This document shows positions 14,490 to 62,125 of a stretch of 64,000 bases of DNA, piece after piece. The DNA lies in contig NC_044922.1 in the NCBI RefSeq assembly GCF_003576645.1, forward strand, positions 23,580,886 to 23,644,885. The letters are read 5' to 3'. Below the pieces are notes generated by a model. That model ran no database searches. It was not told where the DNA came from and was given only the letters and a program-made list of their open reading frames with translations. A program made the translations under genes and the position numbers. The stretch is from Ipomoea triloba (Eukaryota > Streptophyta > Magnoliopsida > Solanales > Convolvulaceae). Numbering within the stretch: position 1 is the first letter of the stretch; each line of letters starts with the position of its first letter.

Positions 14490-14526
14490 TATTATCTAAT
14501 GGAAAGCTATTTGATCAAATGACAAA

Positions 14527-16702: not shown

Positions 16703-16916
16703 AAAAAATGAGTTCTTGCAATCTCCGTCATCTTACAAAAAATATCTCATTAAATTGTTATGAAATATGTAATTAAATTTTAAAATTTGTATTTATTTCC
16801 AAACTTATTCCTATTGTCACATATTAGGTTAACGCAATTATATTTTATATTTATTACCAATTTATAAATTAATCGATTTTATTATAAATATTAGCTTAAT
16901 AATTAAGCAGTACAAC

Positions 16917-16925
16917 TATATAAAG
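16917..16925 (+). promoter_or_regulatory. TATA-like element of the SUVR promoter
   Basis: TATATAAAG is conserved with copy A and lies ~90 bp before the conserved leader exon block. Confidence 0.45.
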
Positions 16926-17003
16926 AGAAAAATATAACACCACACTTTCTAATTTAACTCAAATAATATTTTATGACATTCAAAGTATTTCATTTCCCCA
17001 TTT

Positions 17004-17105
17004 TCTTACAGACAGCACCTTTTCTTTCACCCACTGTCGGAGCTTGAGCTTTTCTGCAGCAAGGCGTCGCAATCTGTTCTCATTTGATCTTCGCATCTCA
17101 GCAGG
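17004..17105 (+). other. SUVR 5' leader (noncoding) exon
   Basis: This pyrimidine-rich block ends CAGCAGG at 17105 before a GTGAGC donor and has no ATG. The likely partner acceptor is at about 21151 (ttattatacag). That gives a ~4-kb leader intron containing the 273-bp array. The exact transcription start is unknown. Confidence 0.6.
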
Positions 17106-18486
17106 GTGAGCTCCTGTTTCCCGTTTCTTAGTCCAAATTTTTTTTTTCTTTCTAATAGCTGTAGATTTTTCCGTTAAATTTCAGCTTCTTTATCATTTTT
17201 CGCTTCAATTAAAGTGTTTATTTTTTCGGTTTATCTCATGGATAATATTTATTATTTTTATTTCTTTAAAAATTTAATGCTAATTTTTTATTTCCATTTT
17301 GGTTTACACATACATTACCTGTGAATGCAAGTGTAAATGGCTTATTTTGCTGGAGGAAGAATTCTATGATTCGGCTGCGCAATTAGTTTTCATTTGTATA
17401 GTTATTTATTATGGGTGAAAGAAATGGATTGTAGAAGAAAAGAGAAATAAATTTCAATTTACTTTGTTGTGGAATTCTAAATTAGGAGGAAATGTGCTTT
17501 GAAATGTAGTTTTGGGAGGTTTATGATCTTAGGATTCCAGTGTGGCCGTGAAGAGTTTGGTTCTCTGTTGGAAGGAGTTCCTCTAGTACCAGTGTGGCCG
17601 TGAAGAGTTTGGTTCTCTGTTGGAAGGAGTTCCTCTAGTAAGAGCCGGATAGTACATTGGGATATATTGAAGAGACTAGAATTTCCTAATATGGTGAAAA
17701 AGAGTTCAAATTGTTGTTGGAAGGGGCCTGTGTGACAGTACCTTGGGGATTAGGCCTCCCGGCTTAACAAGTATGTCACTAGACTTCAAGGTCTTTGGCA
17801 GTAATTCTTCTTAGCTTCATTGGTGCACAATGTATTCAAGTTAGTAAGATTGTTATGTTGGCCTTTCTGGGGCTGAAAGGGTAATTTATAAAATAGGCAA
17901 AAACTAAAAGAGAATGCTATTTTAAACTGTTTGGAATGAAAGAGATTCGAGACAGCATTGCACATGTATCGAACACAAACTTAGAAAAAATGGAATGAAT
18001 GGTATTAGCAAATATATATTCAAGCAAGGGCTCTGATTGTGGTTAGAAAAATAGTGCCATTTGTAATTTGAAAGAAATTGTAACAATTTTAGGTTTTTTT
18101 ATTTTTTTTTATTTTTTGTTTTTTAATAATGAATCTCTATCAGGCTGGGTATACTTAATGGAAACTATGACTCTAGAAGAAGTAAAATGTAGAGATTTGC
18201 AAATTTGAAGCACTTCTTCAAGATGCAATTGGCTTAGTGGTTGGCGGTGGCTTAGTTAAGTTGTGTGTTAAGCTGCTTAGTTATTGTAATGCGTAGTCAA
18301 TTGCATCTACTTATGGTAAATTTAAGATTATGATTCCCTCAATTGCTGCCCCATTCTGGATTAAAGCAAAAAATTACTGTATGTATTTTACGGTTCACAC
18401 CATTTCTTGAGCCAACAAGTGTTGAAGGTTAATTTGCTAACTTCCTGGGATCTATCCTATAAAAACCAAAATAAGATTCACGATAA

Positions 18487-20338
18487 CTCTTGTGGGGCAT
18501 ATAGAGGTTTAATGGAAGCTTAGCACGTGTTTTATGGTTTTGACGCTTCATAACATGTGCTATTTGACTCATTTGGATAATAGCTTAAAGAGGTTTTTCG
18601 GAGGGGTATTTACAGAATTCTCTTATAAAAGGAATCTAGGTTTTCCTATTTTCTTATGCCAATTGAACATCCTTTGTTCTCGCTTTTCCTTGGCAACCTG
18701 CGAATCTTATTTTTGTTTTTCTAGAATAGAACCCAGGAAGTTGGCAAGTTAACCTTCAACTCCTGTGGGCCATATAGTGGTTTAATGGAAGCTTAACACG
18801 TGTTTTATGGTTTTGATGTTTCATAACACGTGCTATTTGACTAATTTGGATAATAGCTTAAAGAGGTTTGTCAGAGTGGTATTTACAGAATTCTCTCATA
18901 AAAGGAGTCTAGGTTTTCCTATTTTCTTATGCCAATTGAACATCCTTTGTTCTCACTTTTCCTTGGGAACCTGCAAATCTTATTTTGGTTTTTTTAGAAT
19001 AGAACCCAGGAAGTTGGCAAATTAACCTTCAGCTCCTGTGGGCCATGTAGTGGTTTCATGGAAGCTTAACACGTGTTTTATAGCTTTGACACTTCATAAC
19101 ACGTGCTATTTGACTCATTTCAATAATGGCTTAAAGAGATTTGTCGGAGGGGTATTAACTGAATGCTCTCGTAAAAGGAATCTATATTTTCCTATTTTCT
19201 TATGCCAATTGAACATCCTTTGTTCTTGTTTTTCCTTGGCAACTTGCGAATCTTATTTTGGTTTTTCTAGAATAGAACCCAGGGAGTTGGCAAATTAACC
19301 TCCAACTCCTGTGGGGCATATAGTGACTTCATGGAAGTTTAACACGTGTTTTATAGATTTGACGCTTCATAACATGTGCTATTTTACTCATTTGGGTAAT
19401 AGCTTAAAGAGGTTTGTTGGAGTGGTATTTACAGAATTCTCTCATAAAAGGAGTCTAGGGTTTCCTATTTTCTTATGCAAATTGAACATACTTTGTTGTT
19501 GTTTTTCCTTGGCAACCTGCGAATCTTATTTTTGTTTTTCTAGAATAGAACCCAGGAAGTTGGCAAATTAACCTTCAACTCCTGTGGGGCATATAGTGGT
19601 TTAATGGAAGCTTAACACGTGTTTTATGGTTTTGACGCTTCATAACACATGTTATTTGACTCATTTGGATAATAGCTTAAAGAGGTTTTCCGGAGGGGTA
19701 TTTACAGAATTCTCTCATAAAAGGAGTCTAGGTTTTCCTATTTTCTTATGCCAATTGAACATCCTTTGTTCTCGCTTTTCCTTGGCAACCTGCGAATCTT
19801 ATTTTGGTTTTTTTAGAATAGAACCCAGGAAGTTGGCAAATTAACCTTCACCTCCTGTGGGCCATGTAGTGATTTCATGGACGCTTAACACGTGTTTTAT
19901 AGCTTTGACGCTTCATAACACGTGCTATTTGACTCATTTGGATAATGGCTTAAAGAGATTTTTGGGAGGGCTATTTACATAATGCTCTCGTAAAAGGAAT
20001 CTAGGTTTTCCTACTTTCTTAGGAAAATTAACATCCTTTGTTCTTGTTTTTCCTTGGAAGCCTGCGAATCTTGTTTTGGTTTCTCTAGAATAGAACCCAG
20101 GAAGTTGGCAAATTAACCTTCAACTCCTGTGGGGCATATAGTGGTTTCATTGAAGCTTAACACGTGTTTTATAGCTTTGACTCTTCATAACACGTGCTAT
20201 TTGACTCATTTGGATAATAGCTTAAAGAGGTTTTTCGGGAGGGGTATTTACAGAATTCTCTCATAAAAGGAATCTAGGTTTTCCTATTTTCTTATGCCAA
20301 TTGAACATCCTTTGTTCTCGCTTTTCCTTGGCAACCTG
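18487..20338. repeat. 273-bp tandem repeat, 7 units, in the SUVR leader intron
   Basis: Units start at 18487, 18760, 19033, 19306, 19579, 19852 and 20124. Spacing is 272-273 bp, and the last unit is truncated at a 'ctgccaacctcag' junction. Reading by eye gives 11 CACGTG cores across the array; others have decayed to CATGTG or CACATG. Copy A has three units. Confidence 0.95.
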
Positions 20339-21227
20339 CCAACCTCAGATGAGGATGAAAGTTTCTACCTCACAAGGTATTGGACTGTAAGGAAGAGGAG
20401 GTTTTTTATCAATCAGGCTTCTGAACTACCGGATGTGTTGCTAAGAGCACATTTTATAATATTATTGCTTGTCCCTTATTGACTAACTCTTTATATTCAA
20501 ATTCTGGTTCAATGTGCTTGTCTCCATTTCGTGCCAATTTCTACGATTTAGATCTGTATTACTGCTTAGATTCTGATATTATTTCCATGAAAGAGAATTG
20601 ATATGTGTGTAATGGTAGAGAAGTTTTTTTGCTCATAGCTGAAAAGCATGAGAGATGACATTTAGGGGACAATTTTAGGGGCCATAGCTTTTGCTGCAAA
20701 ATGTTGAAGGACTAGCTAGCACCATAACCATTTGTTTTTTGGGTGTGGGGGTTGGGAGAGATAACTAACTGATGTGCACAAGCACCAAATTACACACCTG
20801 CTCTTTTTATCAAATTACATGAACATAACTGTTTACATAGGTATATGTATGTGTTTGTAGGTGGTGTTCCATGTCCCTGTTACTAGATAGATTCTGTCAC
20901 ATCCTCCATGCTCCCTGTTTTATATAATACAGAGTAACATTCACATATTGCCTTCTATCTTCCTCTTCTATATTTCTCCTTTCAAAATTGCTTCCTTTTG
21001 GGTCATTAATATGAAAATGGATGGTGCAACCTCTAAAAGAAGCTAACTTCCAAAGTAGAAGGGCGTTAAGACAAATGCAAAGTGAACAAAGTACTTTCTG
21101 TTTCAAAATCAATGCTTTATGTTTCCTTCTACAATTACTTTTATTATACAGATTACTTATGATAAAGGGTAATTGTAGTTTTATTGAATAATATGAAAGC
21201 TGCGTGAAGAAATTTGTGGAGTAAACA

Positions 21228-28806: not shown

Positions 28807-29713
28807 GGATATATCAAATGTTCATTATTTGATATACTATCTAAAAATGAATTTTCAGTAAATTAAAAATGAATGTTCAGTATGCTAAAAATGAATATGT
28901 ATGCATGATGTATTTATAATGCGGATCATGGTCCACAGTATAATTTGTCGAGGACCTAGCAAAGAAGTTTAATGAGGAGCGATGGATCGATAATAGGCGT
29001 ACTCAGTCAGGGTGGATGGTTAGGCAAGTAATCGGATAGTGGAGTTAACCAATTAGCCAATCAGGTGCACATATCGGGGGTTGTAAAGTGCCTAAGGATA
29101 ATTGGAGAAGAGTTACCGAAATTGTCCATCGACTATTGCGAAATTATCAATTTGGTCATCGACAATTTTTTGTGTCCAATTAAATCCCTCGACTTTAAAA
29201 CTTTTAACCAATTTGATCATCTGTTTATTTTGCCGTTAAATCGGAATTAAATTGATAATTTTGCTATAAGCTTTTTACGCGCCCAGAGCATTGTGCGCAC
29301 AATGTGCAAAGAACAACAAAGCTTTTTCCCTTTTCTTTATTCTCATGAGTCCCACCAAAAAACATTTCTCTTGCAAATATAATTTCTTATATCCCCCCTC
29401 TCCTCTCTCCTCTAAATCATCATCTCTCAGCTCCAATTATAAAAAAAATTCACAAAAAATGAAGATGGAGATGATCTTAGCAAATTATATTATAGACAAT
29501 AATCTATACTGTATTGTGTACCCAATTATTTATTTACATGTACTGAAATTGTTAATTGTAGGTACAAAATATGTTGATATAAATTTTTTGTATCAATGTT
29601 CACAATTCAATATAAATCTTGGTTCATGGTATAACAATTTGTTGGGTTGTCCCCAACGTAAAATTCTTTTATACATCTACTATGTAGTTAACAAATGAAA
29701 CGATGAGGCCCAA

Positions 29714-30325
29714 ATTATGCTGTGGACCCAGGTCCACCTTGCAAGGTCGACCTGGGTCCAAAACTACGTCATTTTTTTTTAATTAGTAAACATATTGCTG
29801 AATATAGAGTTGTCCAAAAATGTGTGAATGTAGAGATTTCAAAGTGTAAATGTAGAGTATAGAAATCGTGAATGTAGACTTATGATTGTGTGAATGTAGA
29901 GTTGCCTAGAAATGTGTGAATGTGGAGGTTTCAAATTGTGAATATGGAGTATAGAAATCGTGAATGTAGAGTTATGCATGTGTGGATCTGTAATAGAGTT
30001 AAGAAGTTCTAGCAACTTGTAGCATTGTAATGTGTGAATGTGGAGTTCTCAAGTTGTGAATATGGAGTATAGGACATGTGAATATAGAGTTTTGAATGTG
30101 TGAATGCATAACAGTGGTAATATACAATAGTTACTAAACATATAAGCTTGTAGTGTGTGAATGTGGAGTTTACAAAGGGTGAAGGTAGAATATAGTGTAT
30201 GTAAATATAGAGTTTATGTTCCACATTTCAGGCCAATATGTAAAAAAGAAAAAAAAAAAAAAAAAAACGGCGTCGTTTTTGGACCCAGGTCCACCTTGCA
30301 ATGTGGACCTGGGTCGACGGCATAA
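29714..30325. mobile_element. Element with ~60-bp terminal inverted repeats upstream of RPL23 (left copy)
   Basis: The ends (about 29718-29780 and 30262-30325) are inverted copies around GGACCCAGGTCCACCTTGCA. The interior is a degenerate repeat of 'gtgtgaatgtagag'. Outside it, an approximately 50-bp direct repeat (about 29660-29710 and 30338-30388, containing TGTAGTTAACAAATGA) flanks the element. The right copy is at about 33049-33660. Confidence 0.65.
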
Positions 30326-30405
30326 CTACTGCCCAATGTGACATTCTTTTGTACATCTAATGTGTAGTTAACAAATGAGACGATGAGGCAATTGGGTTGG
30401 CTTCA

Positions 30406-30487
30406 GGCCCATATTGATGACTCAGTAGGCTTAAGCCCAACCCATCAATCAATATTCATTTCTTAGAAAAATTCTCACAAAACCCTA
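30406..30487 (+). promoter_or_regulatory. RPL23 promoter: site II motifs and telo box (left copy)
   Basis: GGCCCA at 30406-30411 and AGCCCA at 30434-30439 are site II (TGGGCY) elements on the minus strand. The telo box AAACCCTA is at 30480-30487. The pair is typical of plant ribosomal-protein promoters. A pyrimidine-rich leader follows up to the ATG. The right copy has the same elements at 33741-33746, 33769-33774 and 33815-33822. Confidence 0.7.
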
Positions 30488-30560
30488 GCCACTGGACTGA
30501 TATAAACTCCACCGCCCCCTTTCTAGTTCTCCTGTTTCTGGGAGAGAGAGCGGATCAACC

Positions 30561-32116
<1,556 letters not shown>

Positions 32117-32141
32117 NNNNNNNNNNNNNNNNNNNNNNNNN
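32117..32141. other. Assembly gap (25 N)
   Basis: Run of 25 N separating the two near-identical 3.3-kb copies. Confidence 1.
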
Positions 32142-33048
32142 GGATATATCAAATGTTCATTATTTGATATACTATCTAAAAATGAATTTTCAGTAAATTA
32201 AAAATGAATGTTCAGTATGCTAAAAATGATATGTATGCATGATGTATTTATAATGCGGATCATGGTCCACAGTATAATTTGTCGAGGACCTAGCAAAGAA
32301 GTTTAATGAGGAGCGATGGATCGATAATAGGCGTACTCAGTCAGGGTGGATGGTTAGGCAAGTAATCGGATAGTGGAAGTTAACCAATTAGCCAATCAGG
32401 TGCACATATCGGGGGTTGTAAAGTGCCTAAGGATAATTGGAGAAGAGTTACCGAAATTGTCCATCGACTATTGCGAAATTATCAATTTGGTCATCGACAA
32501 TTTTTTGTGTCCAATTAAATCCCTCGACTTTAAAACTTTTAACCAATTTGATCATCTGTTTATTTTGCCGTTAAATCGGAATTAAATTGATAATTTTGCT
32601 ATAAGCTTTTTACGCGCCCAGAGCATTGTGCGCACAATGTGCAAAGAACAACAAAGCTTTTTCCCTTTTCTTTATTCTCATGAGTCCCACCAAAAAACAT
32701 TTCTCTTGCAAATATAATTTCTTATATCCCCCCTCTCCTCTCTCCTCTAAATCATCATCTCTCAGCTCCAATTATAAAAAAAATTCACAAAAAATGAAGA
32801 TGGAGATGATCTTAGCAAATTATATTATAGACAATAATCTATACTGTATTGTGTACCCAATTATTTATTTACATGTACTGAAATTGTTAATTGTAGGTAC
32901 AAAATATGTTGATATAAATTTTTTGTATCAATGTTCACAATTCAATATAAATCTTGGTTCATGGTATAACAATTTGTTGGGTTGTCCCCAACGTAAAATT
33001 CTTTTATACATCTACTATGTAGTTAACAAATGAAACGATGAGGCCCAA

Positions 33049-33660
33049 ATTATGCTGTGGACCCAGGTCCACCTTGCAAGGTCGACCTGGGTCCAAAACT
33101 ACGTCATTTTTTTTTAATTAGTAAACATATTGCTGAATATAGAGTTGTCCAAAAATGTGTGAATGTAGAGATTTCAAAGTGTAAATGTAGAGTATAGAAA
33201 TCGTGAATGTAGACTTATGATTGTGTGAATGTAGAGTTGCCTAGAAATGTGTGAATGTGGAGGTTTCAAATTGTGAATATGGAGTATAGAAATCGTGAAT
33301 GTAGAGTTATGCATGTGTGGATCTGTAATAGAGTTAAGAAGTTCTAGCAACTTGTAGCATTGTAATGTGTGAATGTGGAGTTCTCAAGTTGTGAATATGG
33401 AGTATAGGACATGTGAATATAGAGTTTTGAATGTGTGAATGCATAACAGTGGTAATATACAATAGTTACTAAACATATAATCTTGTAATGTGTGAATGTG
33501 GAGTTTACAAATTGTGAATGTAGAATATAGTGTATGTAAATATAGAGTTTATGTTCCACATTTCAGGCCAATATGTAAAAAAGAAAAAAAAAAAAAAAAA
33601 AACGGCGTCGTTTTTGGACCCAGGTCCACCTTGCAATGTGGACCTGGGTCGACGGCATAA
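33049..33660. mobile_element. Element with ~60-bp terminal inverted repeats upstream of RPL23 (right copy)
   Basis: Same element as 29714-30325. Confidence 0.65.
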
Positions 33661-33895
33661 CTACTGCCCAATGTGACATTCTTTTGTACATCTAATGTGT
33701 AGTTAACAAATGAGACGATGAGGCAATTGGGTTGGCTTCAGGCCCATATTGATGACTCAGTAGGCTTAAGCCCAACCCATCAATCAATATTCATTTCTTA
33801 GAAAAATTCTCACAAAACCCTAGCCACTGGACTGATATAAACTCCACCGCCCCCTTTCTAGTTCTCCTGTTTCTGGGAGAGAGAGCGGATCAACC

Positions 33896-35441
<1,546 letters not shown>

Positions 35442-35449
35442 GATCTGTA

Positions 35450-39065: not shown

Positions 39066-40539
39066 ATTAAATACTCTGTAACTTGTAAGTTGTAAGTCAT
39101 AAATGCCACCTAATAGTATGTCATGATTACCAGTTGATAATTAAAGGGATTATAATGAATCTTTAGTTACAAATATCATGCAATAATATCATTCCACACA
39201 ACACTTGTTCTGAATCAGGTAGAGGTCATTGGCAAACTTTTTTTTTTTGAAAACGGTCATTGGCAAACTTAGTCAAACCCGTAAACCTAGTTTAAAATAT
39301 CTATTAAATAATAATAACTTAAAGTCAAATTCATTATACTTTGGTTAGAGATTATTGTTGTAATATTATTGAACTGCTTCGAAAGTGATTTTGAACACCA
39401 TTTTGGGACCAAAAGTTCCTCAATCGCATCAAGCTTTATACTATTTTTGCAATAAGTTGGCTAGTAATATTTGGTGATTCTCCAAGAAAGAGAAAAAGAA
39501 ATAACGTTAACTATATCCATTAATATTCTTAAAGTATAAAATACGTTGTCATATTTTTATAACATTTTGGTAAGCTTTTTAAGTGTTCGGCGTTTGTTTG
39601 ATCCCCATAATGCCATACCTTGGATTGGCTATGTATTTTTCTCTATTGTGGTATGATAACTGCCTAAATGTTCATGTTTTTACCTTGAATTTAAGCTTAT
39701 TTTCCTTTTCATTTGTTATAATTTTGCCTAAAGTGTTCCTCATTTGATTCATTCGTGTGTTTAGGTGTAATTCTTGATGATTTAGATAAATTGAATGATT
39801 TTTGGAGCATTTCGCCGGATACATGTAGAGTCAATCGGAGCCAATGAGAAGCTATGAACATGGGGTCAATACCTCTTAGAGAGCCAAATTATAGTATGTT
39901 CAATGGTCTTGGTCATTTTGACAAACAAAGGCAAAAGTGGAGCAAAGGAGCAAGAAGTTGAAATTCTCGCACAACTCGTCCATTGCTTGGTATTTTGGTC
40001 ATATCTCTAAGTAAAAATGTCCAAATCAAGTGATATTTATATCATTGGAAAGCTAACTTGAAGGACTGCAATTTTGATGAAGACCATAAACGCTACTTCA
40101 AAGGATTCCAGGATGAAAAGTAGCTTAGAAGACAGACAATATGCACAGGAACACTGCCAGGCCTGCATGTGCCCCCTGAATGCCCGATGAACGCCTAGTG
40201 TTTTTTGCAATCTTGCTTTAGAGGTGAGGTTTTGGAGGGCAAGATTAGTCTAACAAAATTGAAATACCTAATGTTAATAAAAAAAAAAGTACATTTCATT
40301 TGTAAAAATTTTTAAAAATAATATGTGTGTGTGTAGTAATAATCAAATGATATCAGTTTGGTCGCCTTTTCTGACGACATGTTGGTCACATCTTTGTTGG
40401 AATTTCGAAGCTTCGCTGGTGCATTATTAGGATTCTATTACTGGTCAGTATTAGAATTTTGAGTTTTAATACTAAATTAATATGTTAACGTGTTTAATTG
40501 TAACTTTTAAAAGTTTAAGAGTCTAATAATTGAGTTATT
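39066..40539. other. Intergenic; possible old retroelement sequence at about 39600-40210
   Basis: The middle part (39760-40200) has a texture like plant LTR-retroelement noncoding DNA, but I found no LTR ends, primer site or coding motif. Confidence 0.2.
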
Positions 40540-41074
40540 GAGTAAATTCCTTTTTTGGTCCTAGACTTATTGTGCATTGGACACATTTAGTCCGATTTTA
40601 TTAATTTGACCACATTTTGCCCAGACTTTGTTAAAGTTGGACAATGTTAGTCCAAAGTTAGTCTTACCGTTTGTTAGCCGTGTATTTGAGGGGCATTTCC
40701 GTCCTTTCAAGTCCAAGACTTAATCGTTCCTAATTTTAAGTTTGACTCACGATTGGATCTTTGCTTTGGGCTTGGATCTGCAAATCGCCGGTGTCTCCGC
40801 CTTCGAAAGCTGCGACGATTCGAGGGTGAAAATCGTCGAATTCTCGGCCCCGTGAAGTCCATAATCGCCACCGTGAAGAGTTGCCACGATGTCGCTAGGA
40901 GGGGCGATGAGAGCGGCGGCGGTATCACCTACGAGCTTATATATCTTCTGCACGAATGCTCCATTCGGCGACCATATCCACTGTCTACAACCTCATACAA
41001 TTTCTGCTCAAAACTGGTTCTTCTTCTTCTTCTTCTCTGTTTGTATTAAAGATTTAATATTTGGTTGTTGATGG

Positions 41075-41858: not shown

Positions 41859-42547
41859 ATCAAAATACTGAGCTTAACTCCGGAGTGTTGTTTCAGCTTC
41901 AAATTACCCTTAATTGTTACAATTCAGTTTTTATTCTTGCTTAATTTGGAGTTAAATCCATGTGAAAGAGTTAACTCCGAAGTTGGGATGATTGATTCCA
42001 TAATTTCTTTGATTCTTTTAATTTGGAGTTTACACCCCTAATCTTTATGGCTTTCTTGAATACATACGGATTAACTAATTTGAATATGAGGGCCGGGATT
42101 TTTCCGGTGAAACATTGTATTAATTTCGGCAGTTGCGGCCTCCGGTTTCACACATATATGCTTCGCCGGTAGCCTGAGTTTGTGAGGATAGCCGACAACT
42201 TGGAAGGGAGAACGTATACGTGAGGGTCAAAAAACACAGTCAACAGCATTCCTTACGTTATTTGTTGGAATAAAACAAAAGTTATGTATTCCTGGACTTG
42301 AAAGGACGGAAATGCCCCTTAACTTCACTGTTGACAAACGGCAATGGTAATTGTGGACTAACATTGTCCAATTTTAACAAAGTCTGAACAAAATGTGATC
42401 AAATTAATAAAATCGGACTAAATGTGTTCAATGCACAATAAGTCTAGGACTAAAAAATGAATTTACTCAGTTATTACATAAAGTTAAATGGTATATTTAT
42501 CCCTTCTCCCTTTTTATTTTATAGGGCAAACTTCTATGACATAAAAT

Positions 42548-43145
42548 GAGGGGAAATGACGTTTTTGGCCCCTCAATTGTTTTACTTTTAGAAATTTAGC
42601 CCCTATCATTTGATTTGAACAAATCTAATCCTTTAATTGTTCATAATGCACCACATTTGGCCCCTCATGTTATATAATTAGAATTGTTTTTAATAATTTA
42701 TTTTTCATTAGGTTATAATTGTCCAATTCTTTCAACCATTTAACTTTCTTCTCCTCCTTCTACGTAATTGGTGGTTATGCATGCCCTCGTACTAGCTTTT
42801 GACAAATCTGTGTGTCCCAGGAATGTTGTATTGTTACTTGTTGGTTGAGTTATATAATTAATTAAAAAAGCTTCTACCTAGCTTATACATCCATTTTATG
42901 TCAATGCTCTTGCTCTCCTTTAATGATGCTATTGTGCTGTCATTCTAATTTAAATGGTTGAAAGGATTGAACAATTATAACCTCACGAAAAATAAATTAT
43001 TAAAAACAATTCTAATTATATAACATGAGGGACCAAATGTGGTGCATTATAAACAATTAAAGGATTAGATTTGTTCAAATCAATTGATAGGGACTAAATT
43101 TCTAAAAGTAAAGTAATTGAGGGGCCAAAAGTCCCATTTTCCCTC
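42548..43145. mobile_element. Foldback element with ~190-bp inverted arms
   Basis: Arms at 42548-42740 and 42955-43145 mirror each other, both containing GGCCCCTCAATT and TACTTTTAGAAATTT. No coding capacity. Target duplication not resolved. Confidence 0.8.
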
Positions 43146-44379
43146 AAAAGTAATACTGCTAAACTTTTTGGGTGGAGAAAGTAAAATTTGATTCGTAAAT
43201 TTATGGAGTTCCTGTGTATAACAGTTGTAACCGCAATGAACGCTAGAACGATAGGTGCTTCTCTCTGGTACTCCTGGGGATGGAACCCACGAAATCCCCA
43301 CGTGCGTATACATATTCGTCGTCCGTTTACGGTATATGTTCCTGGGATTTCCATGTATGGAGCTGTTTGATTCTGAATTTCTAGGTTTTCTCAGTTTTGG
43401 AGGTAATAATTTCTCGTTCCGCTTATATTTGTACTAGTCTCATCATTTATTGAATTTTGAGTTGTGTGAACTTATGAACTTGTCTTTATCCATTAATGGC
43501 TTAAATCGGCCTTGCATATAGTTACCACCTTTTTTCTTACTTTTCATTAAGAAGAAAATCTTTTCCTTCTATTATTCAGCTCCCAAATTAATTGCTGTTT
43601 GTTACGTTTATATGGTGTCTTGTGTGTGTGCGGGCGTTTTTTTTTTTTTTTTTTTTTTTTTTTTGAAGAAGAAATCAAGGTTGTAAGAAATATTGAGGTC
43701 TTAGGACTATGGGTTCTTCTTTCCATCATCTTGATTTTCTGAGCACTCATATGGTGTCATTAAACTGGATTTTGGATTATGGATGGAGCTCTGTTAAGCA
43801 TTTAATATGGATAACCTGTTGCTGAAATTGACTTTTGTGCAGCTTTCTATAGACCCAGTGACTGAAGAATAAAAAATTTTTGGGGTTTGAAACTGCAGAT
43901 TTTCTACTCTTTTCTTTCTTAAAATTTTAATTTTTTTTTAATAGTGTCCATACATCTTAATGTTTTAAGGTGTAATTTTTCATATTTGGGTGGCAAATAA
44001 ATCAGCAAATATTAGCAAGGCAGCAATTAATATGTCTTATCAGGACCAATTTCCATTGTTACAATCATACTTCATGCATGCACAAGATTTAGATGAGTTT
44101 CACTTCTCATCAATTTTAGCTAATATGCCTCCCTTGTTTTATTTCATGGATAGTTGTTATTCTCTACTTTTACCACTTATGTATACATAGTTGATAGTTC
44201 TAATTATTTGAGAATCTTTTCCCCCATACCTAAAGTTCTTTTGAGGTTTTTGCCCCGTGGAGTTACAAATATTATGCCCCCTTGTGTTGCAGGATTCATG
44301 ATTCAGCTTAGGTTATTGAAATTAAGGAAATTCTAGTTTAGGTGATTTCGCTATATATATAAAAAGAAGAAAAGAAGAA
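43146..44379 (+). promoter_or_regulatory. Upstream region of the PHR1-like gene
   Basis: It probably holds promoter, leader and a leader intron. CACGTG lies at 43299-43304, a poly-T run at about 43630-43663, and a likely acceptor TTGCAG at 44292 within 90 bp of the start codon. No P1BS site was noticed by eye. Confidence 0.35.
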
Positions 44380-47300
44380 ATGGAGGCACGCCCTGCTCTA
44401 TCTGTCCAAAGCACAGGTGCTGGGCAACTCAGTAATTGTGATGCATTTGGGGCTCTTTCCTCTCCTTTACATGTTCTTCCTACAAATCTCAAAGAGATAT
44501 ACCCCAAGTTTCCAGAGTCGCAGCAGGTTTCCTTGGGGAGGGATATTATCCAACATCCTCCAGCTGTTCTATGTCCAATTCCTTCAGATAGTGGAGTTGT
44601 TGGTCATCTGCTTTCTTCATCGTCTGGATCATCCGGATTTTCTAGTGATCTTAAATTTTCTTCTGTTCCACCCCATGAAAAGCACCCAAAGCAACCCTCT
44701 TTTCTTTCTCAGTCAACAACTCATTCTGTCATTCTTGAAGCAGCAACGTCAAGCCATTATGCCCAAGAAAATAACAACTCCTGGTGTATAGATTCATTTT
44801 CTGATTTTCTTGATTATCCAGTAAATGCCCCCGTGCAGAACAGTCAGCTGGATTACAGTAACAATGGTGATTGTGTATTTACATCTGAGGATCTTAGTAA
44901 ACACAGTGATTGGCAGGAATGGGCTGAGCAACTAATTGCTGATGATGATGCTTTTACTCATGATTGGAACAATATTGTTGCAGATACATGTCCCACAGAT
45001 CCAGAGGCAAAGGTGGATTCCATTTCATTACTTTAATGCTTTTTCTGATATAATTTTCGTTATTATTTTTGCTTTAATTTAGTCAGAGGTAGTGTTCCCA
45101 TAGAAAGACCCGTCTTGCAGAAACAGTCTACTCTTTATTGGTGGTATGCCATGTGCTTCAGTGGTTACACCTTGCTTTGGCAGGATGATTATTTTTCTAA
45201 GCCATTATCCTTTATTTTATTGCACCCATTTTAACGTTTTCCCCATTCTGTGGTTACAGATGCAATATCAGGCACCCAATCAATTTTCAAATGTCCAAAA
45301 TCAGCAGCATCAGGCATCACATCATCCTGCAGCTTTATCTGGAGAAGCATTAATAGTTGGTTCTGCTTCATCCACCATAAGTGGTGCTACAACCAAACAA
45401 CGTATGCGCTGGACACCTGAACTTCATGAAGCATTTGTGGAGGCTGTCAACAAGCTTGGTGGAAGTGAAAGTGAATTTCTCTCCTTAATGAACTTGTTAA
45501 GGTGATGGGGTCAGATATATTAGACTACTGTTATAATTAAATGTCTTTACTTGAACCGCAGGAGCCACTCCCAAGGGTGTCCTAAGGCTAATGAAAGTTG
45601 AAGGTTTAACCATTTACCAAGTTAAAAGCCACCTGCAGGTGTGTACTGCTTTCTTATCCAGATAATAGCTCCTTGCTAGATGGACCTCTTGTTGCCTTTT
45701 ATCAATTTAATTGTGGAATCTACAGAAATATCGAACTGCCCGGTACAAACCAGATTCAGCAGAAGGTCTGCTATTGTCTTCTTGTTGTTTTGTATTTAGA
45801 TTTTTTGTGTTTATCATGTTTGTTATCCTATTTTGGAATCCTCAAGTTTCATATAACTGATGTTCTGTCAGAGAGGGTTGAGTATTCATGCATGCTAGGC
45901 ATATGTGATACAATATAGATCCTGGGCTGCCAAATGCTAAAATTGATTGGGAATCAATTTAGTTATCTTATTTCCTAGTTTATTAGTAGTTGCCTTTTTT
46001 TACTTTTAGCATATTTTAGAATATTGTTTCCTTATGTTTTAAGCTTTTAACTCCTATATATAGGGAGAATATTAGATTGTCTGAGTAAGTTGGAAATTGA
46101 ATAAAATCAAAAGGAAGTTTCTTCCTCCAACTTCTCCCCAACTCTCAGTTCATATTCCTCAAGCTTCTCCTTATCTCCACCATAGGTAGATATAAATCTT
46201 CATCCTCTTCCTTCTCCTTCAGTGTTGCATAGGCCCATAATGCGAAGCCAAACCCGTGAACATAACAATATGATCAGTAGCCTCTCAATTTCATGGCTTC
46301 CTCAGCCTTGATGTTTCATGCTACTTAGTTTTTGCCTGCAGTTTTTTCTGCAATTTACTATCCTTAATCCTAAAAGTGCTTTCATTTCCAGAGGCCTGCT
46401 TAAATTGCTGGAGGTTGATTTGTTTGCTTATGAAGCCCTTCTCCAATTTCTATTGCAGGATCCTCAGAAAAGAAGCAGACTTCTGTTGATGATTTGCCAT
46501 CTCTGGACTTGAAAACGTAAGCTGATGAATCTGTTCATGAAGGTTTTTTTTTTTTGGCTCAGTAGTTATCAAAGAATAAATAATATAATGTGATTTTTAA
46601 ATGATGACTAGAAAATTGCTCATGGTCCTTTCTCATCCAGAGTGTGAATTTCCCTGGTAGTGAGTATAAAATTATGGGATTGCTATATTTGATCCGTAGC
46701 ATTTTGGAAATGCAAGCTGATTCCAATTTGAGTGGCTATGTAGATCCATTGCCCCATCAGTTTGCTTATGTTAGGGTTGAGAGTTGAGACACTAGATGGT
46801 TGGCTGTGTTTTCCTTGAAGCTTTTGCATAGAGTGTATACACTTTGCTGATTAATATACATATATACGGTTTTATACAGGGGAATTGAGATCACTGAAGC
46901 ATTGCGACTGCAGATGGAAGTTCAAAAGCGACTCCATGACCAGCTTGAGGTATGAATTCTTGCTTTTAAAATGTATTATGATCTCAATCAAGGGCAGTCA
47001 TCGGGAAACCCATAGTCACTACCCCGAGGGTGTGCATTGGGTAAATCTTGCCTTGCGACCTTAGCCGGCAAAGGACCACAATGAGGTAAACCAGCCTAGG
47101 TTGCCCATAGTTACCTTCTCAAACTAAGAAGGCTGGGATTCGAATTCGTGAGCTTGTGGTTATAAGTTTGTATCCCTTAGCCATCTTGGCTGGGGTTATG
47201 ATACATGTTGAGGAAGTCTTATTTTATTATATTACATAGTTTAGATATTAATAAATTACTAAATAGTTATTTAGAAACTATAAGTAGTTATCTAGAAATT

Positions 47301-48477
47301 ACTAAATAGTTATTTAACTTATTACTCTTAGTCTTTGAATTAGTTTAGGTAGATTAATTATTTAGAAACTACCAAATAACTATTCTTAGTTTAGGAACCT
47401 TTGTAAACAACCCTATAAAAGGGAGTGTTATTTGGAATAATAGAACAAGCAGAAATTCAATCCCAAAAAGGGTCTAAGGGAGTTTTGAGTCTCAAACAAA
47501 CTCAGTATTTTCTTCTTTTCATTTTCAAATTATTATTCTTTCTTTCTTTTCCCTTATGTTTTCTTGCCCATGACGGGAGCACATAACATTGGTTCTGTTG
47601 TCGGGAATCGAACCCGGGTCTCTCGGGTGAGAGCCGAGTATCCTAACCGACTAGACTACATAAGGAAAACACTGTTATGTGTTATGTGCTCCTGTCATGG
47701 ACAAGAAAACATAAGGAAAAAGAAAGAAAGAATAATAGTTTGAAAATGAAAAGAAGAAAACACTGGGTTTGCTTGAGACCCAAAACTCCCTTAGACCCTT
47801 TTTGGGATTGAATTTTTGCTTGTTCTATTATTCCAAATAACACTCCCTTTTATAGGGTTGATTACAAAGGTTCATAAACTAAGAATAGTTATTTGGTAGT
47901 TTTTAAATAATTAATCTACCTAAACTAATTCAAAGACTAAGAGTAACAAGTTAAATAACTATTTAGTAATTTCTAAATAACTACTTATTAGTTTCTAAAT
48001 AACTATTTAGTAATTTATTAATATCTAAACTATGTAATATAATAAAATAAGATTTCCTCAGCATGTATCAGGTTACCCCAGCCATTTTCCCTTTTCTTTG
48101 TTGGGAACTGCTGCACTGTAGAAATGAGGTTCATCATGTTGGCTCTGGTCTCTGGTTGAAATTCCATGTTAACACTTGATCTTGACGTTCTTTTGAAGAT
48201 CCAACGGAATTTGCAGCTGAGAATAGAAGAGCAAGGACGATATCTCCAGATGATGTTTGAGAAGCAGTGCAAGTCAATGCCAGGTATAGGTTTGCTCAAG
48301 GGATTGCCATCCACAGCAGAGAACCCCAACGAAAGTGATCCAGGAGTGCCACATAGTGATCACCCAAAAACGGATGATGTAGTTAATGTAGTGACATTGT
48401 CGGACGACTCTCAAATTCTGTGTGAGAAGCAATGTGGGGAAGAAGTTACAGAAATTCCAGAAAAAAAATGTGGCTAG
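44380..48477 (+). CDS. PHR1: PHR1-like MYB-CC transcription factor (phosphate starvation response)
   Basis: PHR1-type factors switch on phosphate-starvation genes in the nucleus through P1BS sites and are held back by SPX-inositol pyrophosphate complexes. Exons: 44380-45012, 45260-45470, 45562-45638, 45726-45765, 46459-46516, 46880-46949 and 48199-48477, 455 residues. Residues ~256-318 are the single MYB (GARP) domain: TKQRMRWTPELHEAF, then ATPKGVLRLMKVEGLT, then VKSHLQKYRTARYKP. Residues ~344-387 are the MYB-CC coiled coil with QKRLHDQLEIQRNLQLRIEE, which keeps the Lys, His and Arg positions reported for SPX contact. The N-terminus is acidic and Ser-rich. Intron 6 (46950-48198) carries a SINE and the LTR-tRNA palindrome. 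The clade is clear; the exact paralog is not. Confidence 0.92.
46985..47190 (-). mobile_element. Au-like SINE in PHR intron 6
   Basis: On the minus strand a box-B-like segment (ATTCGAATCCCAG) is followed by 'ttgtggtcctttgccggcta', a phrase I associate with plant Au-type SINEs. The target duplication was not found. The LTR-tRNA element sits just beyond its 5' end. Confidence 0.55.
47199..48070. mobile_element. Palindromic LTR element: LTR, antisense tRNA-Glu, inverted LTR
   Basis: LTR-like arm 1 is 47199-47588 and starts TGATACATG. It contains CTATAAAAGGGAG and ends ACATAACA. Arm 2, 47673-48070, is the same sequence reversed, differing at about 17 positions plus an 8-base end duplication. Between them lies a tRNA-Glu copy whose CCA complement (TGG, 47590-47592) starts one base after arm 1, exactly where a primer binding site belongs. 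GGTTA is duplicated at 47194-47198 and 48071-48075. The joined target, TGGCTGGGGTTACCCCAGCCA minus the insert, is itself nearly palindromic. There is no gag-pol. Confidence 0.8.
47590..47666 (-). tRNA. tRNA-Glu(CTC)-like sequence including 3' CCA, probably a retro-copied tRNA
   Basis: The minus strand reads through a D-arm (TAGTCTAGTCGGTTAGGA), an anticodon loop CTCTCAC with anticodon CTC, a T-loop GGTTCGATTCC and a terminal CCA. Plant nuclear tRNA genes do not encode CCA. The acceptor stem is mismatched (TCCTTATG against CAACAGA), and one T-stem pair is broken. It is therefore probably not an active tRNA gene. Confidence 0.65.
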
Positions 48478-49336: not shown

Positions 49337-50492
49337 GGAAAATTGCGAGTTTGGTTCCTGAGTTTTAACCAAGTTTCAACTCAATTTCTAAGATATGACT
49401 GTATCCGAGTTTAGTCCCTCAGTTATTTACGAAGTGGCGAGTTTAGTCATCGGCTGTTAAATTTGACGGAAAAATTAAAAAATATTTAAAAGTTGAGGGG
49501 CAAAATAGGAAATTCACATTTTAGTCTCTTTATTATATCAAAACTACTTTCACAACATTATTTTTTCACTTCTTAGTCTCTCATTTCAAGATTAATCTTC
49601 AATTCTAAAAGCATTTCAATAATTTTAGTATGACTTGTTGGGAACCTGGTTCTCGTATAACAAACTTAAGACAACACTTGATCATTGTCTTCAGGCGTGT
49701 GAAACATACCATCCTAAAAGTTTATGATTTATCTTACTAAACATCATGGGTAATCAAACCATAACTTTTGAAATACAAGAAGATGTCAAATTTCTCAAGT
49801 TATTTTTATGACAAATTCACCAAGGGAGTAACTTGAGATTTTTAGTACGTAAAATTCTTTCGTAAGCTCTGCAGTAACTTTATCAAGAATCGTATATCAT
49901 GACAATATATGAAAATTATATTATATATATCCATCACCTCATCTGTCTTCTTAAAAACCAGAGTAATGAATGAAGAACCTAAGACTTAGTTATGGAAATT
50001 CTAAAAACGATTATTGACTAAATTACTGCATATGAAATAATTATTTTTTACATACTAAAAATCTCAAGTTATTCCGTTAGTGAATTTCTCATAAAAGCAA
50101 CATGAGAAATTTGACATCATTTTATATCTCAAAAGTTCTAGTCTGATTACATTTGTTACTTAGTTAAGAAAATCAAAAATTGTAAAGATAGTGTGTTTGG
50201 GAGAAAAAAAGTTATTGAAATGCTTTTAGAATTGAAGAATCTTGAAATAAGAGGCTAAGAAGTGAAAAATAATGTTTTGAAAGTGATTTTGATATAATAA
50301 AGAGAATAGAATGTAAATTTTCTACTTTACCCTTCAAATTTTAAATATTTTTTAATTTTTTTTCGTCAAATTTAACGGTCGGGGATTAAATTCGCCACTT
50401 CGCAAATAACTGAGGGACTAAACTTAGATACGGTCATATTTTAGGGACTGAGTTGGAACTTGATTAAAATTCAGGACCAAACTGGCAAAGTG
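49337..50492. mobile_element. Large foldback element, arms ~290 bp or more
   Basis: The outer arms (about 49340-49625 and 50205-50490) are inverted copies containing CTGAGGGACTAAA-type and ATGCTTTTAGAATTGAA-type phrases. The inner parts also mirror each other (for example 'acttgagatttttagta' and 'tactaaaaatctcaagt'), so nearly the whole ~1.15 kb can fold back. No coding capacity. Confidence 0.8.
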
Positions 50493-56737: not shown

Positions 56738-59700
56738 CTAAAACTTTTTGAAATTTGTCAAAGTGTTGATTGTTATTGTTTCCAGTGGCTCTCCAAGCAA
56801 AACCTTAGTTCTAGCTGATAGTTGTTGTGCCACGGAACGCATGGTAGGCCGTGAGTCTGGTGTGGTGCGCGTGCAAGCCAACGCCATGCTCATCACAAAC
56901 ACGACTTCATCTGCAAATTTTCCGGTGGGAGGAAGAAGTCTCGGGTCAAGCAGATCCCTCAAAGGTGTGTTTGCAGACAATTCTGGAGAAGAAGATAGCA
57001 GCAGCTCCCCAGGATGCCTTCCCATCATAACTTCCAGTGCCACCACTCCGAAGCTATAAACATCTGATTTCTCCGTTACCCGCATCGTGAATGCAAGCTC
57101 TATTCATCAACAAACAAACACAAAACGTTATGTATATTGGAAAAAAAAAAAGAAAAAAAGAAAAAAAGAAAAGAGAAAACGTTTAAATGCAGGCCCGATC
57201 GACATGGCAAGAAAAATAGGTCTTTGTCCAGGCAGCTAACTGGTCACATGGGTAAAATTTGAAAAAAGAAAAATAAGTCCTACCTCGAAAGAATATATAT
57301 TTTCATACTTAACAATTTTACATACATTAAAATTCTAGGTGCTTTCCTAAATGCAAAATAATAAATAACCTCATCAAATGTCTTCATAAATAAGTAATTA
57401 TAGTTTATAAAATGAATAAATGATTCTTTTTTTTTTTTTTTGAGTACAAATGAATAAATGATCCAAAATCAAATAAGCTTACAAACAATAACATTGTTAT
57501 CATAATAAATACGGAATAATAAATTAATTATTGAGAAAAATTTATATAACAATTTAAAACTTACAAATCGATGTAGATCTGGAAATCTTTTTGATTGGAG
57601 GTAAAAAACTTTAAAATGAGATAAAAAAAATATAAATAACAAAATATGAAATATAATTAATTGGATAAAATTGTTGGAATAGAAAATATATTATAAATCA
57701 CACATCTTCTATATTTATATGATTTTTATAAATACCGTTTCTTTTAGTTGGATCAATTTCAAGTTTTTCTAGAATAATATGAATGCGATGACACGTAATA
57801 GAAACTTCTATATAATATACTTTTTAAATATAAGTATTAAAATTACTTATTAGCTATAAATAAATTTTAAAATTATAAATAAATCGCACAAATTAAAATT
57901 TTATTTTCTAAAATGTAAGGAAAAACTTTATTAAAAGAGGTTAGCAATAAAAACTAACCCCTTGACCTTTACGGTGTATTGATTATGTAACTTACCAACC
58001 AAGCTACTTTAATTTCAATTAAATTGTATCTATATTATTTACTTATACATATATATACTCTATATATAAAAGAGGGGGAGGGGGAGGGGAAGGTGGGCCC
58101 TGAACAAGCCCCAGGGCCAGCTCTGTTTATTAAGGCTATGATCGAGTTAGATCAATTAATTGATTGGATTCTATTTTTAGTGTAGTTTTGGTCCATGTGC
58201 ATTACAGCTAAGTTAGTGACCTTAGTCCAATTATAACATCATAGCCACTACTTGCAAGCAATTCTGATGCTGAAACTCTGATGCACATTGCAGACAAAGT
58301 ATATTTGATCTGCAAAGAGCCTAAGTTCTCACAGAATGGCCTATTTCACATTGCAGCCAAAGTATATTTGATCTGCAAGAGCCTAAGTTGTCACAAAACA
58401 AAATGCCCTATTTGTAATTCAATGGAAGAGAAAAAGAAAACAATTCCACCTAAACTTTATATATACCTGGTGCCATATATCCATATGCCCCAGCAACCGA
58501 GGTCCAAGTCGATGAATCCGAAACCAACAGCTTTGCTGTTCCAAAGTCTGAGAGCCTCGGCACAAATTCTGACTCGAGCAGAACGTTATTCGGGGATATA
58601 TCGCGATGCACAATAGGCGGACAGCAGTCATGGTGCAAATAAGAAAGTGCATGAGCTATTCCTTGCACAACTTTCACCCGCATATCCCACCCGAATTCTA
58701 CTGCCATTTTATCATCATACAGGACTTTTCCCAAGCTGCCCTTCTCTACATACTCATAAACCAGGTACAAGAAACAGCTCCTGGAACAGTAGCCATAGAG
58801 TTTGATGATGTTTCTGTGGCGTACCTCTGTCAATGTCCGGACCTCGTTCTCAAAACCATGCCGGTTTGTCAGTGGAACGTCGGTGGAGTTAGACACGTCG
58901 AGCCTTTTGACTGCAACAACCTGTCCTGTAAGCAAATCGGCTCGGTACACACTTCCAAAACCTCCTCTTCCTATGCAGTACTTCTCACTGAAATCTTCAG
59001 TGGCTTTCACTATATCCCTAAATGTGAATTTCCCTTCTCGGTTCCATATCAGAGAGATTGATGTCTCATACTTATCGCCCGATCTTTCCTCTTCAATCTC
59101 TTGCTTCTTTCTCCTTCTAAGCACATAACACCAAACAGCAGTTACAGCTACTATTAGGCTGATTGCTAAAACAATTACACCTATGATTGCCTTGCCTATA
59201 TTGATCTTTGCCTTACTCGAATTAAGCCTACATTGAGGCAATCCTGCTATATTTCCACACAAACCGGAGTTTCCAAGAAATGCTTCAGCTGTTGCTCCTA
59301 GGAATCTTCCATCACGAGGAACCGGTCCACACAATTGATTGTAGGAAAAATCCATAACCTGCAAGCTCACCATGCCGGTTAAGGCAGGAGGAATTTCGCC
59401 CGAGAGCTTGTTATGGGATAGGTTCAGATTCTCCAAGGTGATAAGTTTTCCCAGGTTTTGTGGGATCATCCCTGAAAGTGAATTGCTGCTAAGGTCCAAA
59501 AGGATGCTTAGCCCAAATATGTTGCCAAGTTCAGAGGGAATATAGCCTGATAACGAGTTGTTCCTCAGATTCAAGCTCAATAAGTTCTTGCACTTGCAAA
59601 GCTCTCCAGGCACTTCTCCATTAAGCTTGTTTGCTGAAAGATCAAGATATTGGAGCAGGCTTAAGTTCCCAAAACTCTTAGGAATCTCCCCCACCAGACC

Positions 59701-61755
59701 ATTATTGCTCAAGCTGAGATTTAACAGCAGGCCTAGATTTCCCAGTTCTGCAGGAATTTCACCACTCAATTCATTTCCATCTAAGTTAAGGACATGAAGC
59801 TGTGCCAACTTCCCAAGCTCACTCGGGATCGAACCAGAAACTTTATTACCATCCATTCTCAGAGCCATAAGCTGTGTATATTGGCCCCAGCGAGGCGAGA
59901 GTTGGCCTGTGAACTGATTCTTACTAACGAAAACAAAACGAAGACCAGGGTGGACTCCAAACGCCTCGGAAATGTTTCCAGTGAACTCGTTTTCTTCAAG
60001 GCGTATTCTACTTAGATTTCTGCAGTTCTTCAAGCAATCTGGCAGCTCCCCGGAGAAGCGGTTCCCATTTACTGTCAGCTCCTCAAGAAGATAGCCACTG
60101 CATAATCCAGGAGGTAGTTCTCCAGAGAAGCTGTTATTAGAGAAGCTAACATTGGCCAAATAAGGGCTATTTAGACCCAAGTCCCTTGGTATCTCCCCCA
60201 CAAAATCATTGGTAAACAAAGAAAGAGTTTGCAGATTACCAAGCTCAGAAATGGTGTAGGGAAGCTCACCACTCAAGTGGTTACAGCTCAGATCAAGAAA
60301 AGTGAGTGATTTTAGATTCCCAATCTCAGGTGGGATTGTTCCAGTGAGATTGTTGGCAAAAACACTTAGCCAAGTGAGATTTGTGAGGTTTCCAATCGCG
60401 GGAGGTATTGGACCAGAAAGATGATTTTGCGAAAGGTCGAGTGAGTCCAAATGCCTCAGCTTTCCTATCTGAGGAGGAATGGTGCCTGTGAACTGATTTT
60501 GGTACAGGAAGAGAATTTCAAGATTTGTCAGTAGCCCAATTTCATAAGGAATCCTCCCAGTGAAGGAGTTGTTGAAAAGTTGCAATGATGTTAACTTAGT
60601 CCAATTGGAGACCAAATATGGTGCTATTTCCCCAGAAAGAAAATTGGCTGATAGGCCTAAGTCTGTTAACTTGGTCAAAAAGGACAAGGATGAAGGGAGG
60701 TCTCCAGTTAAGGAATTTAAAGCCAAACCTAAAAAGGTGAGGTTAGTGCAAAGGCCAAGCTCTGGAGGAATACTAGAGTTGAGTCGATTCTCTTCGAGAT
60801 TCAAGTGCTGAAGGCCCTTGAGTTTGCCTATGGAAGATGGGATCATCCCTTGGAATGAATTGTTATGCAATTCAAGAACTCGAAGAGCGGGTAACGAACC
60901 GATATGATGAGGAATGGAGCCAGAGAAGTGGTTTATTCCTAACCTAAGATCTTTAAGGTTTGACAGTTTGGTGAAGTTTGGAGACAAAGGCCCTGAAAAC
61001 TGATTTTCAGTGAGATTGAGATACTCAAGCTTGTTCAAAGAGGTAAATACTGGTTCTGGAATGGAACCATTGAAGTGGTTTTCTGACAAATCAAGAAAAA
61101 CCAGGCCCCTGCAGCCCAGTATGAAATCAGGAAAACCTGATCTGAGTTCATTCCAATTCAAGCTGAGGTGTGTGAGTCGAGGGAAATCCCGGATTTTCGA
61201 CCAGTTAGGAGCCTCAAGAAGATTTGATCCAAGGTCCAACAACCTTAACTTCTGAAGATTGCCTATTTGGATAGGAATCAAACCAATAAAATTGTTGTTA
61301 TAGAAGCTTACATACCTAAGCTCCCTCAATTCCCCAATCTGGGGTGGGATCATGCCACTCAAAACATTGTTGCTCAAATCCAGGAGTCTCAGCTTGGAGA
61401 GATCACCAACACTGGGAGGAATTGACCCACTCAAGCTGTTCCCATTGATGTTGAAACTGGTGAGGCTGGGAAAAGAAGTGAAATTGAGGTGATCAAGAAC
61501 ACCTGAAAGGCCTGCATTTGGAAGGTCGATCCCGGAAACACTTCCCGATCCGTTGCAGATTATGCCTGTCCAGTTGCATAGGTTTTTGAGGTTGGAAAGT
61601 GACCAATTTCTTAGGGAATAAGATGGGGACAGGCTGCTCTTCCATTTTAGAAGAGCTTCGGCTTCGGGTCTTTCTGATGCTACTATTGATAGAATGGAAC
61701 AAAAGAGTACAACATGAAAGATGAGAGGTACAGAGAATGTGTGAAATGTTGTCAT
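56738..61755 (-). CDS. Leucine-rich-repeat receptor-like protein kinase
   Basis: A plasma-membrane receptor kinase. Minus-strand exons: 61755-58467 and 57099-56738, joined at GYMAP|ELAFTM, 1216 residues. The start at 61755 gives a clean signal peptide ([19 protein letters not shown]); the ATG at 61833 would bury it. An LRR N-cap ([17 protein letters not shown]) is followed by more than 25 plant-type LRRs (LxxLxLxxNxLxGxIP). The membrane span is around residues 856-880 ([19 protein letters not shown]), followed by RRRKK. The kinase has [27 protein letters not shown] and DFGTAKLL, so it looks active and of RD type. The ligand is unknown. I place it near the MIK/At1g35710-like receptors with limited confidence. 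It converges on CESA4, with stop codons 240 bp apart. Confidence 0.93.
57100..58466. other. Intron of the LRR receptor kinase
   Basis: AT-rich 1.37-kb intron. It contains a GA-rich run near 57140-57180, a GGGGAG-rich patch near 58070-58100, and a 40-bp direct repeat ('gcaaagtatatttgatctgcaa'-like) at about 58293 and 58353. No gene is seen. Confidence 0.6.
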
Positions 61756-62125
61756 ACCTAAGATTGTTCCAGGGGGATTCTCAGCTTGTTTTTTTCCTTG
61801 TTTTAGTGTTGTTGTTCTCTCATATATTACCATATCAGGGTCTCAAGGGGAGTGGAATGTGGAATGTGGTGGATAATGACTTGACAGAATGGCACTATTT
61901 AAAAAGGAAGCAAAAACAATCACAAATCTGGACTACATATAAAACACATGTTTTTGGTTTAATGCTGAGGTTATTTTCAAGAATTGAAATCATGAAGCTG
62001 TGTGAATACTTTATACTTTATAGGGCTATATAACAAATTGATATATATATTTAGTGGTTCCTGGGATTGGATGTTAGCCACAGGGGTCAAATCCTAGTAT
62101 ATATAGACTGGCTAACTTAGCATAT
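61756..62125 (-). promoter_or_regulatory. Upstream region of the LRR receptor kinase
   Basis: Contains the leader, with an in-frame upstream ATG at 61833 and the promoter. No specific elements are claimed. Confidence 0.3.

Follow-up and report, generated by a model that had tools for sequence, protein, structure and literature searches.

An inverted LTR-tRNA-LTR unit in an intron of a PHR1-like gene of Ipomoea triloba: a probable integrated by-product of reverse transcription

How can most of a transfer RNA (tRNA) come to lie between two inverted long terminal repeats (LTRs), just where a retrotransposon would carry the start of its primer binding site? This question is raised by a palindrome in a 64,000-nucleotide stretch of Ipomoea triloba DNA (assembly GCF_003576645.1, contig NC_044922.1, forward strand, 23,580,886 to 23,644,885), the whole of which we call the window. 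The palindrome is an 872-bp unit at 47199-48070 of the window, made up of two inverted LTR-like arms with a 91-nt centre between them, and it lies inside the last intron of an intact PHR1-like (MYB-CC) gene. Judged from its sequence, we think it likely that the unit is an abortive LTR-retrotransposon complementary DNA (cDNA) that was nevertheless integrated, and the palindrome is probably the product of a single accident.

The arms, the tRNA copy and the filler

A preliminary description of this DNA had two LTR-like arms facing each other with their inner, U5-type ends, and our sequence and inverted-repeat analysis confirms both their coordinates (Table 1) and their orientation. Both arms start at their outer ends with TGATACATG and finish at their inner ends with GAGCACATAACA; in arm 1 the U3 end (TGATACATG) points outward and the U5-type end (CATAACA) inward, and the unit as a whole runs from TGATACATG to CATGTATCA, i.e. 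TG...CA. Within arm 1 there is a TATA-like box, CCCTATAAAAGGG, labelled by eye. The TG...CA ends, this box, the adjacent primer-site sequence and the target-site duplication (TSD) together suggest that the arms are LTRs. The unit is flanked by a clean GGTTA duplication, as had been reported, and from base composition an exact duplication of 5 bp would arise by chance with a probability of ∼0.0012-0.0014. Taking the position of the CCA end, the exact 5-bp duplication and the TG...CA termini together, the earlier proposal of integration in one piece through two U3 ends is the best fit to the sequence. Five base pairs is the dominant TSD length in most plant LTR families (PMC6911290; here and below, published sources are represented by the available parts of their text).

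The alignment rows of the two arms contain 374 identical positions, 16 substitutions and one 1-nt gap, a difference of 0.041 (0.042 corrected). If the arms were identical at the start, this difference would correspond to an age of 1.6 or 3.0 million years, using rates of 1.3e-8 and 7e-9. The substitutions are 14 transitions and two transversions, and among the transitions the C/G state is retained in arm 1 at seven sites and in arm 2 at seven, an even split of the kind that decay of both arms from a common original sequence would give. Changes of the C-to-T type tended to be more frequent at CG and CHG sites (3/7) than at CHH sites (11/95), with sites counted in arm 1 only, a difference that is not significant (Fisher P 0.052). 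Besides the two arms, no further LTR copy was found in the window (the best other match is 75% over 56 nt, E 0.002), and no open reading frame (ORF) of at least 150 aa overlaps the unit. Folding the unit as RNA bore out the palindrome, with −598.4 kcal/mol compared to a mean of −167.3 (sd 6.9) over 20 shuffles; the predicted RNA would be a near-perfect hairpin.

At the centre of the unit ARAGORN calls a tRNA-Glu with anticodon CTC on the minus strand, and Rfam model RF00005 matches it with 48.1 bits (gathering score 29, E 3.3e-07); it is the sole tRNA that either finds in the window. Its CCA end (TGG, 47590-47592) stands one T past the end of arm 1, where the primer binding site would start, and in this respect, too, the preliminary description was right. 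The tRNA is not, however, complete as had been claimed: the copy spans about 71 of 76 nt and lacks the first ∼5 nt at the tRNA 5' end, with filler standing in for the 5' acceptor strand. CCA is added post-transcriptionally and is absent from tRNA sequences predicted in genomes (PMC6317226). In the Rfam alignment three of the seven acceptor pairs and one T-stem pair are non-standard, and a cloverleaf was not obtained when the copy was folded freely. Checking with ARAGORN and Rfam instead of tRNAscan-SE therefore upheld the call of a tRNA-Glu(CTC) while finding its acceptor stem broken. We rejected a working tRNA gene because of this broken stem, the missing cloverleaf and a CCA that is encoded in the DNA.

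How faithful is the copy? Our reference for the tRNA 5' end was a 15-nt plant tRNA-Glu start that was sought in the literature, where small RNAs of poplar, olive, soybean, strawberry and Astragalus have UCCGUUGUAGUCUAGUUGGU in common, which we take to be tRNA-Glu sequence. These small RNAs were published as microRNAs, mostly novel ones. Agreement at positions 1-15 is built into such a search, and the published small RNAs add only positions 16-20. From about position 6 onward the copy matches the reference, except for a C in place of U at position 17, a usual dihydrouridine site; this C, where the small RNAs of all five plants have U, might reflect a misread base, a tRNA isodecoder or a mutation at a later time. 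Two more positions look decayed, one judged by T-stem pairing and the other by pairing with the reference 5' end. Over 67 nt this makes three differences, where 1.4 would be expected from the decay of the arms, a number that is not unusual (P 0.16). Position 58 reads A, and no misreading is seen there.

The 19-nt filler that follows the tRNA copy looks as if it had been templated by arm 2. Together with the preceding ACA, three nucleotides shared with the tRNA, it can be assembled without gaps from three stretches of 12, 10 and 7 nt that occur identically on the same strand of arm 2; they overlap by 5 and 2 nt, and the last of them forms a tandem TGTTATG with arm 2; matches to arm 1 are shorter, at most 8 nt. 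A longest match of 12 nt has P 0.0022 under a Markov null and 0.00145 under a window null. For 8-mer coverage (17/22) the corresponding values are 0.007 and 0.0036, and for 7-mer coverage of the same strand of arm 2 (22/22) they are 0.0014 and 0.00096. When only the first 100 nt of arm 2 are considered, a restriction picked after seeing the data, 7-mer coverage has P 2e-05 and 0.00026.

A proposed origin and its rivals

How could such a unit arise? In our proposal a tRNA-Glu would have primed minus-strand synthesis, and the plus-strand strong-stop product would have copied U3-R-U5 and then nearly the whole tRNA, beyond A58, the usual stop. Because of this read-through the product would be unable to make the normal second strand transfer. 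Instead, a second LTR copy would have been attached by its U5 end to the end of this product's tRNA copy via microhomology template switches, which would have taken up the 12-, 10- and 7-nt pieces from the inner end of the LTR and which may have been the work of reverse transcriptase or of repair-type end joining. Serial switching at microhomologies fits reverse transcriptase and polymerase-theta-type joining alike. Integrase would then have inserted the linear DNA via its two U3 ends, after which the arms would have decayed to their difference of ∼4%. A molecule with two U3 ends is suggested because the orientation of the primer site and of the TATA-like box makes both outer ends U3-type.

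An aberrant plus-strand strong-stop DNA would be expected to have U3-R-U5 followed by a tRNA copy that runs past A58, and in its sequence the unit shows this order, with a putative U3, R and U5. In human immunodeficiency virus (HIV) the modified A58 normally halts plus-strand synthesis; in vitro, a tRNA that lacks the modification is copied as far as its 5' end, and in cells plus-strand synthesis continues upon loss of m1A58 or in methyltransferase mutants (PMC13191261). By analogy we infer a similar read-through for the plant element. The preliminary description had held that reverse transcriptase copied the entire primer tRNA past its usual stop and that an aberrant head-to-head cDNA was integrated. 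Copying past the stop fits best, while "entire" has to be given up, since the copy falls short and is followed by LTR-derived filler; the head-to-head cDNA is supported as a product, which may have been joined by template switching, end joining or fold-back.

Several points weigh against this origin. The commonest primers of plant LTR elements are tRNAs for Met, Arg, Lys, Asp and Asn, and "Glu" is absent from the main text of the survey that lists them (PMC6317226), which would imply that the parent element may be unusual. The filler statistics were picked after the filler had been seen, and 7-mer coverage is weaker when both strands are allowed (P 0.009 Markov, 0.004 window). Both diagnosable filler sites side with arm 2 and not with arm 1, and one of them would need a T-to-C change in arm 1, the loss of one base from the filler, or arms that differed initially. 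Finally, when the unit and one GGTTA are removed, what is left is TTGGCTGGGGTTACCCCAGCCATT, a short palindrome of the form TGGCTGGGG-TTA-CCCCAGCCA. A target site with such 9-bp arms is rare: the window as it stands has 46 inverted-repeat matches (arms of 9 bp with a spacer of at most 5, pure AT excluded, overlapping registers counted separately), only one of which has at least 6 G/C, and an inverted duplication would also yield such a site. Plant LTR elements are described as having a weak preference for palindromes (PMC6911290).

Consider, then, an inverted duplication after insertion, in which an element with one LTR and the tRNA copy inserted first, and a template switch at a replication fork or during repair afterwards added an inverted copy of the LTR together with 9 bp or more of flank. 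The palindrome does reach past the LTRs, with TGGCTGGGG on the left and CCCCAGCCA on the right (BLAST self-match 47187-48084), and the rarity of GC-rich perfect 9-bp inverted repeats in the window speaks for such an event as well. However, a duplication predicts TAACCCCAGCC on the right, where the sequence has GGTTACCCCAGCC, and the junction would have had to acquire two additional bases and a mismatch that happen to create an exact GGTTA TSD (chance ∼0.001). Moreover, aberrant copying of the tRNA would still be required. We regard this history as unlikely.

We consider it quite improbable that the unit belongs to a multi-copy non-autonomous family whose normal form is a palindromic LTR-tRNA-LTR and which is mobilised in trans by integrase. 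The clean ends and TSD would agree with such a family, but there is no second copy within 64 kb, we see by reasoning no evident path from a palindromic transcript back to a U3-ended DNA, and the filler resembles a one-off repair scar. Fold-back has a still smaller chance of being right: a DNA with a fully copied tRNA would fold, its 3' end would pair with its own acceptor strand, and the paired end would prime synthesis back along the same LTR as far as U3. One molecule would yield the whole palindrome in this way, and the non-LTR part of the filler is loosely similar to the acceptor-CCA sequence that would be expected (P 0.037); yet it departs from that expectation several times within ∼12 nt while the LTR tiling is exact, and a hairpin would have to be opened by copying before it had a second U3 end. 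Hardly credible, in our view, is an assembly artefact or a terminal inverted repeat (TIR) DNA transposon without LTR relatives, even though palindromes are prone to artefacts and the arms resemble long TIRs. We rejected a fold-back assembly artefact: the arms have diverged at 16 sites, apparently on both sides, the junction is asymmetric and there is a TSD copy on either flank, and such an artefact is further disfavoured because the gene continues beyond the element and nowhere else in the window is there a close match to the flanks. A TIR transposon was rejected as well, as it leaves unexplained why a CCA-ended tRNA copy should stand one base from an LTR-like end, at the primer position.

Comparison with known systems

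With an ordinary LTR insertion the unit shares its TG...CA termini, a duplication of 5 bp, within the 4-6 bp of such insertions, and, beside the 5' LTR, a primer binding site in the form of one base followed by the complement of a tRNA-Glu 3' end with CCA. Unlike such an insertion, it has inverted rather than direct LTRs, no internal region and a tRNA copy of ∼71 nt where a short primer site would normally be. DIRS-type elements are not known to make a target duplication; we rejected this class for the unit, which has a TSD, a centre of only 91 nt and no overlapping ORF of at least 150 aa. DIRS-1-type elements are like the unit in having inverted LTRs, but they carry three ORFs, with a tyrosine recombinase in place of a canonical integrase (PMC5633606). 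Terminal-repeat retrotransposons in miniature (TRIMs) are likewise short and non-coding, with LTRs and a primer-site-like sequence, but their terminal repeats are direct and their internal domain ends in a polypurine tract (PMC6934838). A TRIM was rejected, as the repeats of the unit are inverted and between them lie only one base, the tRNA copy and the filler.

Aberrant products of reverse transcription offer further likenesses. In the read-through plus-strand strong-stop DNA of HIV, product P1, the primer tRNA is also copied past A58, but P1 is a dead end, an intermediate that was found in vitro when the tRNA was unmodified, or in methyltransferase-mutant cells (PMC13191261), whereas the plant unit appears to have been integrated with a second LTR attached. 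2-LTR circles and autointegration products likewise have aberrantly joined ends of LTR cDNA, but they arise as joins of 5' and 3' LTRs or by self-integration (PMC4751563), while our unit is linear, is bounded by U3 at either end and has the tRNA copy in its middle. No described case of a palindromic LTR-tRNA-LTR layout was found in literature listings on inverted or palindromic LTRs, copies of whole tRNAs, strong-stop DNA, primer sites and Ipomoea elements, a weak negative given that these give titles and the starts of abstracts, include few subscription papers and in two cases show 25 of 109 and 20 of 61 papers, and that no search by name was made for a human element related to retroviruses and described as similar to DNA transposons. 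The LTR pattern had 0 matches in viral contigs and 0 in prokaryote genome contigs, and the pattern of an LTR end plus a tRNA-Glu primer site had 0 in viral contigs, in none of which plant elements are expected.

Host gene, surroundings and implications

As had been stated, the unit lies in a sense intron of a PHR1-like gene, namely its last, the gene being on the plus strand. The spliced product is 455 aa long with an open frame and has the domains Myb (2.1e-10) and Myb_CC_LHEQLE (5.1e-25). A protein of Ipomoea batatas, the best among the 120 of 2836 matches listed, is 97% identical over its length and colinear with it across the element-bearing intron. On the minus strand at 46980-47198 is a stretch with tRNA-promoter-like boxes (by eye), which we take to be like a short interspersed nuclear element, with the palindromic element at its head.

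Table 1. Features of the palindromic unit and its host intron, in window positions.
Feature	Position	Strand	Remarks
Exons flanking the element-bearing intron	46880-46949, 48199-48476	+	splice joins by eye
Last intron of PHR1-like gene	46950-48198	+	1249 nt; splice joins by eye
Palindromic target site, left half TGGCTGGGG + TTA	47187-47198	+	right half CCCCAGCCA at 48076-48084
Left TSD copy, GGTTA	47194-47198	+	sequence
Arm 1, LTR-like	47199-47588	+	390 nt; inverted-repeat evidence
Single T	47589	+	separates LTR end from primer-site sequence
tRNA-Glu(CTC) copy	47590-47660	-	71 nt including 3' CCA; ARAGORN, Rfam
Filler TAAGGAAAACACTGTTATG	47661-47679	+	19 nt
Arm 2, second LTR-like, inverted	47680-48070	-	391 nt; U5-type end inward, U3 outward; inverted-repeat evidence
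Presumed template of filler piece 3 (TGTTATG)	47680-47686	+	7 nt; arm 2 position 1
Presumed template of filler piece 1 (ACATAAGGAAAA)	47709-47720	+	12 nt; arm 2 position 30
Presumed template of filler piece 2 (GAAAACACTG)	47756-47765	+	10 nt; arm 2 position 77
Right TSD copy, GGTTA	48071-48075	+	sequence

The window holds other inverted repeats. One at 49343-50488 is long, with an outer pair of 286 nt at 86% and an inner part at ∼70%, and is perhaps a foldback element or like a miniature inverted-repeat transposable element; another at 42547-43146 has 200-nt arms, 200 nt apart and 92% complementary; a further inverted pair is formed by 40539-40718 and 42290-42469. Direct duplications are also present. 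At 28807-35449 there is a tandem duplication of ∼3.3 kb (28807-32116 and 32142-35449), 99.4% identical, which is recent or possibly a duplication of the assembly. An older segmental duplication relates 3046-9242 to 12494-20956 in several blocks of ∼84-94% identity and includes a 273-bp tandem array with ∼3 units in one copy and ∼7 in the other. On the minus strand at 58450-61842, a stop-to-stop frame of 1130 aa has leucine-rich repeats and a partial kinase match (Pfam).

If our proposal is right, the unit would record, like a fossil in the genome, a step that is normally hidden, the failure of reverse transcriptase to stop within its primer tRNA. It suggests that joining can save a tRNA-capped DNA that would otherwise be a dead end, and that the integrase of an LTR element can use two U3 ends. 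How often this happens could be asked with a searchable signature, consisting of an LTR, one base, a long CCA-ended tRNA copy and an inverted LTR. From its sequence, an almost perfect inverted repeat of 390 bp in a sense intron is also a candidate source of small RNAs. More generally, and as a speculation that we think has little chance of holding, read-through of the primer tRNA could be a recurrent side route by which tRNA-capped LTR DNAs join up in pairs and are inserted by integrase via two U3 ends, and, where such units come to lie in transcribed introns, their long LTR hairpin RNAs could seed silencing of the parent family.

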